A stretch of 64,000 nucleotides of DNA, taken from Spirochaetes bacterium GWE1_32_154 (GTDB lineage Bacteria > Spirochaetota > GWE2-31-10). A model generated the notes under the pieces. The model was not told the origin of the DNA and did not search any database. It saw only the letters and a program-made list of their open reading frames with translations. A program made the translations under genes and the position numbers. The stretch is taken from assembly GCA_001829315.1 (NCBI GenBank), contig MIAY01000003.1, forward strand, positions 62,001 to 126,000. Direction: 5' to 3'. Shown here one piece after another: positions 1 to 56,160 of the stretch; positions within the stretch are counted from its first letter, which is position 1, and the number at the start of each line of letters is the position of its first letter.

Positions 1-185
1 ATTTTGCCCGAAAAGAAGGCGAAAAAAAGTCTCTTCTCAGACAGATGAAAAGAAAATTCAATATTGGTCAGTCTGAAGAAAATATAATTGTCCTATGCGT
101 TGATAATGATCTTATCGAACAGGCTCTTGATATGATAATAGATAATGCAGAAAAAGATGAAATACTGAATCTTTTCCGGCATTAA
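1..185 (+). CDS. C-terminal end of an Rpn/PD-(D/E)XK nuclease-family protein (partial)
   Basis: An open frame enters from the left edge and stops at 183-185. It encodes about 60 residues. The segment beginning EGEKKSLLRQMKRKF closely resembles the C-terminal tail of the complete Rpn-family protein at 55222-56160 (EEKKATLCRQISRKFQ), followed by the same kind of acidic helical tail ending in a short LF/LV motif. This family was once annotated as transposase (PDDEXK_2, Rpn). The catalytic domain lies outside the window, so it is not possible to say whether the gene is intact. The assignment rests on similarity between the two tails and is inference. Confidence 0.6.
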   Translation, partial: FARKEGEKKSLLRQMKRKFNIGQSEENIIVLCVDNDLIEQALDMIIDNAEKDEILNLFRH

Positions 186-55003: not shown

Positions 55004-55221
55004 ATAATAGAAAATTACTAAATTTTACATCCCCACGCAGGCTACCTGCAGTTTAGATCGAAGATTTCACCTGATAAATGATTATTATTTAGCAAATCAA
55101 TCGTAAATATTATATATTCCATTGGAATAATTGAGAAAATTATCAAATAAATTTGTAAAAAAAACCGTCAAACCTCAATGAAAAATAACTTTTTCTCCAT
55201 TTAATGTATAGGGAGGATGTT

Positions 55222-56160
55222 ATGATTAAAAAGGGCGAAGATACTAAAAAAGTATCACTAATGAGTCCGAAAGTAGATTTTGTATTCAAAAGGATATTCG
55301 GTAACCCGGAAATGCCGGAAATTTTAATAAGTTTTTTAAATGCAGTTTTAGGATATATAGACAATGACAGAATTGTCTCTGTTTATATATTAAACCCAAA
55401 TATTGATAAAAAATCTATTGATGATAAATACTCAATACTTGATGTTCGGGCTAAAGCAAATGATGATACAATAATTGATATTGAGATACAGATTGCTAAT
55501 AACAGTGATATGGTTAAAAGAACAGTTTACTACTTATCAAAGTTAATCGAAGAACAGATTTTTGAGGGTGATGACTATACAAAATTAAAAAAATCTATTA
55601 CTATTAATGTAGTCAATTTTATAGTAGTTCAGAATGACAGAGTTCATAATGCGTTTCTATTTAAAGAAATTGACACACATCAGGTATTAACAGATGTTGC
55701 TCAAATTCACTTTCTGGAACTACCAAAACTGAATACTAACGGTATAATGCCCAATGAACTGTTAAAAGACTGGTTATTATTTATTGAGAACCCTGAAGAT
55801 AAGGAGGTTTCTATGATCGCAGAACAAATACCGGAAATAAAAAAAGCATACAATCAGCTCAATGTATTAAGCCATAATAAAGAAGAAAGATATCTTTATG
55901 AACAACGACAAAAGTCACTCCATGAAAAAGTCAGTTCCTTAAATCATGCACATAGAAAGGGATTTAATGAAGGTAAACTTGAAGGCAGGGGCGAAGAGAA
56001 AAAAGCAACATTATGCCGTCAAATAAGCAGGAAATTTCAGATAACTAACGAAGATATTGAGATTATACATAAATGTGAGGATGTTTCTAAACTCGATGAG
56101 GCACTTGATGAGATATTATTTGCAGAAAGTAAAGAAGAAGTGTTAATTAAGCTTGTTTAA
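55222..56160 (+). CDS. Rpn-family PD-(D/E)XK nuclease (transposase_31/PDDEXK_2)
   Basis: The product has 312 residues. MSPKVDFVFKRIFGNPEMPE opens the family domain. ILDVRAKANDDTIIDIEIQI supplies the D...ExQ catalytic core, and MVKRTVYYLSKLIEEQI follows. The C-terminal third is charged and helical. Rpn proteins are Mg-dependent DNA nucleases, recombination-promoting and lately linked to phage defence. ATG at 55222 has AGGGAGG 6 bases before it; the ATG at 55204 has none. A second in-frame start within the gene is annotated separately. Confidence 0.88.
   Translation: MIKKGEDTKKVSLMSPKVDFVFKRIFGNPEMPEILISFLNAVLGYIDNDRIVSVYILNPNIDKKSIDDKYSILDVRAKANDDTIIDIEIQIANNSDMVKRTVYYLSKLIEEQIFEGDDYTKLKKSITINVVNFIVVQNDRVHNAFLFKEIDTHQVLTDVAQIHFLELPKLNTNGIMPNELLKDWLLFIENPEDKEVSMIAEQIPEIKKAYNQLNVLSHNKEERYLYEQRQKSLHEKVSSLNHAHRKGFNEGKLEGRGEEKKATLCRQISRKFQITNEDIEIIHKCEDVSKLDEALDEILFAESKEEVLIKLV
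55813..56160 (+). CDS. Possible internal small protein of the Rpn gene (RpnS-like)
   Basis: ATG at 55813-55815 is in frame with the Rpn gene (codon 198) and preceded by AAGGAGG (55801-55807), 5 bases spacing, a near-perfect complement of the 16S tail. It would make a 115-residue protein of the C-terminal helical region without the nuclease core. In E. coli, such intragenic C-terminal Rpn proteins have been reported to block their full-length nuclease. A TATAAT at 55743-55748 could be an internal -10, but has no good -35. Expression is inference. Confidence 0.5.
   Translation: MIAEQIPEIKKAYNQLNVLSHNKEERYLYEQRQKSLHEKVSSLNHAHRKGFNEGKLEGRGEEKKATLCRQISRKFQITNEDIEIIHKCEDVSKLDEALDEILFAESKEEVLIKLV

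Follow-up and report, generated by a model that had tools for sequence, protein, structure and literature searches.

A conserved internal start in Rpn-family nuclease genes of spirochaetes points to a candidate gene-within-a-gene toxin-antitoxin arrangement

An Rpn-family nuclease gene with a predicted second start site

We analysed a stretch of 64,000 nucleotides (the window) from Spirochaetes bacterium GWE1_32_154 (contig MIAY01000003.1, positions 62,001 to 126,000). Its forward strand carries a full-length Rpn-family PD-(D/E)XK nuclease gene (55222–56160, 312 aa plus stop; product designated RpnL) that matched both PF12784 (213.2 bits, cut-off 27.4, E=5.7e-63, beginning at residue 16) and TIGR01784 (162.8 bits, cut-off 52.1, E=1.4e-47), in each case above the curated cut-off and over the whole domain. 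When all Pfam profiles were considered up to E=1, PF12784 was the only match and PF04754 (YhgA-like Transposase_31) was not found. TIGR01784 (T_den_put_tspse) is named for Treponema denticola; the window protein is a member of this family, but the family entry as listed is silent on an internal start. The main start codon (55222) is preceded on the same strand by the Shine-Dalgarno (SD) sequence AGGGAGG (55210–55216), 5 nt from the ATG, with a duplex energy of -10.5 kcal/mol. The nuclease core, delimited by the Pfam match, the alignment and an AlphaFold model, comprises residues 16–189 (55267–55788, forward strand) and includes the invariant D74, E88 and Q90.

A second SD sequence, AAGGAGG (55801–55807, forward strand), is located shortly after the core. 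It is conserved, has a duplex energy of -11.5 kcal/mol and is separated by the five bases TTTCT from an in-frame ATG (55813–55815), codon 198, which heads an all-helical C-terminal part. Initiation at this codon would yield a protein of 115 aa plus stop (55813–56160, forward strand), designated RpnS, which is a candidate antitoxin judging from the sequence, the conserved site and the analogy with Escherichia coli RpnA-S. The original prediction, which consisted of this SD, spacing and start codon together with a 115-residue C-terminal product devoid of the nuclease core, was confirmed in the sequence, and the alignment and the model showed that the short form is without the catalytic D74, E88 and Q90 as well as the entire beta-sheet core. 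The combination AAGGAGG-N5-ATG occurred once in the window, compared to 0.06 occurrences expected from shuffles. We further compared codon 198 with all 385 in-frame internal ATGs found in the window's 51 largest ORFs, among which it had the strongest anti-SD duplex; the runner-up reached -7.2 kcal/mol and only 1.8% attained -6. The true starts of the window ORFs had a median of -6.6 and 14% of them attained -10. Codon 198 is therefore not an ordinary internal ATG, its duplex being the strongest of 385 and stronger than that of most main starts.

The AlphaFold model, built from a 12-sequence alignment (mean pLDDT 80.5, pTM 0.71), showed an alpha/beta fold for the nuclease core, which ends near residue 189, then a break at residues 190–193 and only helices thereafter: 194–202 (containing M198), 204–217, a long helix 220–272 and three short ones, with lower confidence (60–77) at the C-terminal end. 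D74, E88 and Q90, the PD-(D/E)XK catalytic residues, were invariant in the alignment, and the strands of the core were present in the model. The best matches of a fold search were weak (no E below 0.001) and included the PD-(D/E)XK nucleases EcoT38I and EndoMS, and a sequence search against solved structures gave no match. The long helix contains the four-residue repeats GFNE-GKLE-GRGE (55960–55995, forward strand), whose copy number differs among paralogues. For example, the 12-nt unit is present in 11.2 copies in L012 and in 2.2 in L014, although the aligned columns of the two are 94% identical; such a difference between near-identical paralogues matches the published behaviour of RpnS proteins.

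RNA folding placed the main SD within a predicted hairpin (55185–55223, forward strand, -13.9 kcal/mol, z -2.0) that touches the main ATG, a single-sequence prediction whose form differs in the paralogues L006 and L009. This suggests that the main start may be damped by the hairpin. Around the internal SD the RNA is weakly folded (z 0.24), and the two predictions together hint at conditions that would favour RpnS over RpnL. In E. coli, a short mRNA with its own internal transcription start was reported. In the region of the window gene tested for such a start, promoter-like matches were as numerous as in shuffles (7 vs 8.1±2.7) and none of them stood out.

Conservation of the internal start

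In the genome containing the window (4.03 Mb, 43 contigs), PF12784 is represented by 14 full genes and two fragments. Seven of the 14 paralogues carry a start codon behind a strong SD at the equivalent linker position, at protein identities down to 29–30%. The site reads AAGGAGGTTTCTATG in the window gene (L008) and in L009, GGGAGGTTTCTATG in L006, AAGGAGGATGCTATG in L011, AAGGAGGATGCTGTG in L013 and GAGGAGGACAAAATG in both L012 and L014. The start codon of L013 is GTG, so that the residue is altered while the start function is kept. The nearest paralogue, L009 (71% identical to the window gene over the matched part), enters the window with its 3' end (1–185, forward strand), and its site is located outside, approximately 130 bases beyond the left edge. 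The remaining seven genes (L001–L005, L007 and L010), which form a second subfamily, had nothing at the linker position.

Two additional observations were made in this genome. Three of the main starts of L011–L014 are without any SD-like sequence and the fourth is weak (-4.0), whereas the internal SD is perfect in all four; in these genes the short form may therefore greatly outnumber the nuclease. In addition, a solo C-terminal Rpn remnant (L016, 1456–1878) was found near L003, in which AAAGGAGGATGCT is kept and the start codon is replaced by ATA.

We examined 131 distinct genes, which came from the window genome (14 genes), a 393-genome sample of the phylum, more stretches of those genomes and named records; those from outside the window genome were mostly from other spirochaetes, plus clostridia. 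The named records (clostridia, Desulfosporosinus, Desulfonatronum and spirochaete MAGs) were found with an alignment-based search of contigs, which gave 19 named loci; a single-sequence search of genome contigs gave no match. The genes were aligned and each linker ATG, GTG or TTG was scored by its duplex energy with ACCUCCUU at a threshold of -6 kcal/mol. As a null model, synonymous codons were shuffled inside each gene, which preserves both the protein and the codon counts. A linker site was present in 98 of the 131 genes, compared to 32.0±4.2 (maximum 45) in 300 shuffles. With each 50%-identity cluster represented by one gene, the site was present in 32 of 45 representatives against 11.8±2.5 (maximum 21) in 400 shuffles, and at a stricter threshold of -9 kcal/mol 25 representatives were observed against 4.6±1.9. 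Conservation of the SD and ATG in relatives, on which the original prediction had made its reading depend, was thus found among all genes as well as among clusters. An SD (at -6) accompanied 86% of linker start codons and 3.5% of 715 other internal ATGs in the same genes. Site-bearing genes span many spirochaete families and clostridia, and include named Spirochaetia and Spirochaetales MAGs (L082, L086) and Clostridium relatives (L075, L076). Another count, in which 94 of 98 genes had an internal duplex stronger than the one at the main start, was set aside as biased, the genes having been chosen for a strong internal site.

A linker rich in Lys and Glu and containing a conserved Met could by itself read as an SD followed by a start codon, and even the shuffled genes yielded a site in about a quarter of cases. 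Such a by-product of chance or protein constraint does not, however, account for the excess over shuffles, nor for the choice of codons. Among all genes with a linker ATG, irrespective of SD, the Glu residues located 3–5 codons upstream of it were encoded by GAG in 106 cases and by GAA in 14 (88% GAG), whereas elsewhere in these genes GAG was used 768 times and GAA 2220 times (26% GAG); for cluster representatives, the corresponding numbers were 38 and 5 before the linker ATG and 291 and 730 elsewhere. Residues also change while the nucleotide signal persists. The SD is preserved in two codon registers with different residues, GGAG being formed within xxG-GAG or GGA-G, and the peptides at the site vary (KEVSM, KGVIEM, NLEASM, and KEDAV with GTG) around a constant signal and start codon. 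Chance or protein constraint is already refuted as an explanation at the family level, and for the window gene we consider it extremely improbable.

The SD-like sequence might instead cause ribosomes to pause after the nuclease domain and before the tail, and its location at the domain boundary in the model would suit this role. Pausing requires no start codon, yet each of the 91 genes whose linker contains GGAGG or AGGAG also has one at a distance suited to an SD, mostly 5 or 8 nt; moreover, in three genes that lost the Met (L013, L080 and L111) the start was preserved as GTG or TTG. Pausing without initiation is accordingly a very improbable explanation. The excess over shuffles, the GAG bias, the two registers and the start codon at SD spacing argue for selection on initiation rather than a by-product of the protein sequence and, as far as sequence comparison can tell, selection maintains the internal start in most spirochaete PF12784 genes and in clostridia.

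Genes without the site, later starts and exchanged tails

Phylogenetic analysis of 83 representatives, based on the nuclease columns only, showed that 60 had the linker site and 17 had none, while in 6 a strong SD and start were located later in the gene. The pattern required five changes on the tree, compared to 21.4 in shuffles. Of the 17 site-less rows, 15 fell into two clades, whereas L084 and L145 were single rows inside the site-bearing part. The downstream site was present in L042, L044, L100, L024 and L028, and was weak in L027. Since L001–L005, L007 and L010 have no internal start, the PF12784 family can exist without it.

Members of the two site-less clades (L001–L005, L007, L010, L032, L043, L050, L053, L055, L056, L058 and L064, and also L066, L114, L117, L123, L124 and L149) were, as a rule, also without a strong start elsewhere in the C-terminal half. 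Separate downstream rpnS genes were sought in the flanks of the site-less paralogues of the window genome, and none resembling their tails was found. Another group (L042, L044, L098–L100, L022, L024 and L028) has a strong SD and ATG downstream of the position used in the window gene, closer to the repeats. Some of these late starts read MTL or MTLA, resembling the MTIA of E. coli RpnA-S, and represent a second internal-start position.

We compared nuclease parts and C-terminal tails among the paralogues. The nuclease parts of L006 and L008 are 90.5% identical, whereas their tails have no detectable similarity; likewise, L007 and L010 are 77% identical in the nuclease part and differ in their tails. 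Conversely, the tail of the window gene (L008; 55960–56157, forward strand) is shared with L010 (69% aa identity; 79% nt identity across 183 nt) despite an identity of only 25% between the two nuclease parts, and a second tail (54–60% aa) is common to L006 and L007, whose nuclease parts are 27% identical. The breakpoint is at about residue 247, where the repeats begin. In both tail-sharing pairs (L008/L010 and L006/L007), the internal start is present in just one of the two genes. Similar cases were detected in a second spirochaete genome, where L117 and L118 are 66% identical in their tails and 33% in the nuclease part, and in a third, where site-late and site-early genes have tails 61–86% alike. 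Judging from these alignments, site-bearing and site-less paralogues have exchanged C-terminal tails. A speculative and rather doubtful extension is that the site-less L007 and L010 might be checked in trans by the RpnS of the tail-sharing L006 and L008, with the 14 Rpn genes forming a cross-regulating network instead of 14 independent toxin-antitoxin units. The RpnA-S and RpnB-S proteins of E. coli are specific (PMC10327210).

A nuclease and its candidate inhibitor

Short products were observed for all five E. coli rpn genes and one Clostridioides difficile gene (Zhong et al. 2023, PMC10327210), and the RpnS of rpnA, rpnC and rpnE were shown by immunoblot (PMC10327210). The short product of rpnA was abolished by mutating K240, E241 and M244, and that of the C. 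difficile rpn, which has a predicted internal RBS, was lost on mutation when the gene was expressed in E. coli (PMC10327210). As a positive control, the identical scan was applied to E. coli K-12 and found codon 244 of rpnA (K-E-S-L-M), codon 241 of rpnC and codon 244 of rpnE. Like RpnA, RpnC and RpnE, the window gene encodes a PD-(D/E)XK nuclease with a strong internal SD and an in-frame ATG after the core. It also shares the K-E-x-x-M geometry of RpnA (K240, E241 and M244, corresponding to K194, E195, V196, S197 and M198 here) and a helical C-terminal part with variable-number four-residue repeats (RpnA-S structure, PDB 7TH0). The internal start is likewise common to the C. difficile rpn and the Clostridium relatives L075 and L076, which carry the linker site.

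There are also differences. E. coli RpnA, RpnC and RpnE matched PF04754 in the profile search, whereas the window protein belongs to PF12784. The internal start is closer to the core, giving an RpnS of 115 aa compared to 49–60 in E. coli (median of our gene set, 99 aa), and this RpnS contains about 45 residues of the end of the Pfam domain, unlike the shorter E. coli proteins. Because RpnS is longer here and starts further upstream, it is uncertain whether binding would involve the same surface as in E. coli.

The model and the analogy with E. coli suggest that the 115-aa form retains the helices equivalent to the part of RpnA-S that mediates its dimerisation and its binding to RpnA-L (PMC10327210). 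We favour the reading, with a probability of roughly 80%, that the window gene is an Rpn-type toxin-antitoxin gene-within-a-gene encoding a nuclease, RpnL, and its C-terminal inhibitor, RpnS. Ribosomes initiating at 55222 would produce the complete PD-(D/E)XK nuclease, and those initiating at 55813 would produce only the helical C-terminal 115 residues. RpnS would probably outnumber RpnL, since the internal site is both strong and accessible and the main SD is possibly folded away. We infer that RpnS is translated and acts as an antitoxin in this organism: sharing the long repeat-bearing helix and the C-terminal bundle that Rpn proteins use for pairing, it would bind RpnL and hold the nuclease inactive, to be released by a trigger that is probably phage infection. 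The gene would have a role in phage defence. A defence-system search with PADLOC, which does not list the Rpn family, found nothing, and no gene adjoining the window Rpn gene resembled a defence gene.

The comparative data speak to initiation and not to the action of the product. The short protein could be a partner subunit that serves assembly or DNA binding and not inhibition, like Cas11 produced from inside cas10d, and cooperative internal products are known (cited in PMC10327210). However, inhibition of RpnL by RpnS is established for E. coli RpnA/RpnB: the E. coli RpnS proteins that were tested counteracted their RpnL, and RpnA-S prevented cleavage in vitro (PMC10327210). We therefore consider a partner subunit unlikely and an antitoxin the preferred assignment.

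The suggestion that these genes extend the E. coli arrangement to spirochaetes was right in substance, but its novelty is smaller than first thought, since the 2023 study (PMC10327210) had already called the RpnL/RpnS arrangement broadly conserved, included the C. difficile case and noted variable repeats in Leptospira interrogans. What is new here is the comparative evidence of selection, together with the earlier start and the greater length of the short form that results, the two clades that lack the site and the swapping of tails among paralogues.

Spirochaetes carry very many Rpn genes, with PF12784 present in 155 of the 393 sampled genomes of the phylum, and these genes are annotated as putative transposases. 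From their sequences, most of the sampled PF12784 genes look like compact toxin-antitoxin genes. Selection on the Rpn internal start throughout the phylum and in clostridia is supported by evidence that does not depend on any single experiment and concerns a different Pfam family from the one to which the E. coli proteins belong. With clades that lack the site, and with tails exchanged across the two kinds of gene, the silencing of site-less nucleases becomes a testable question.
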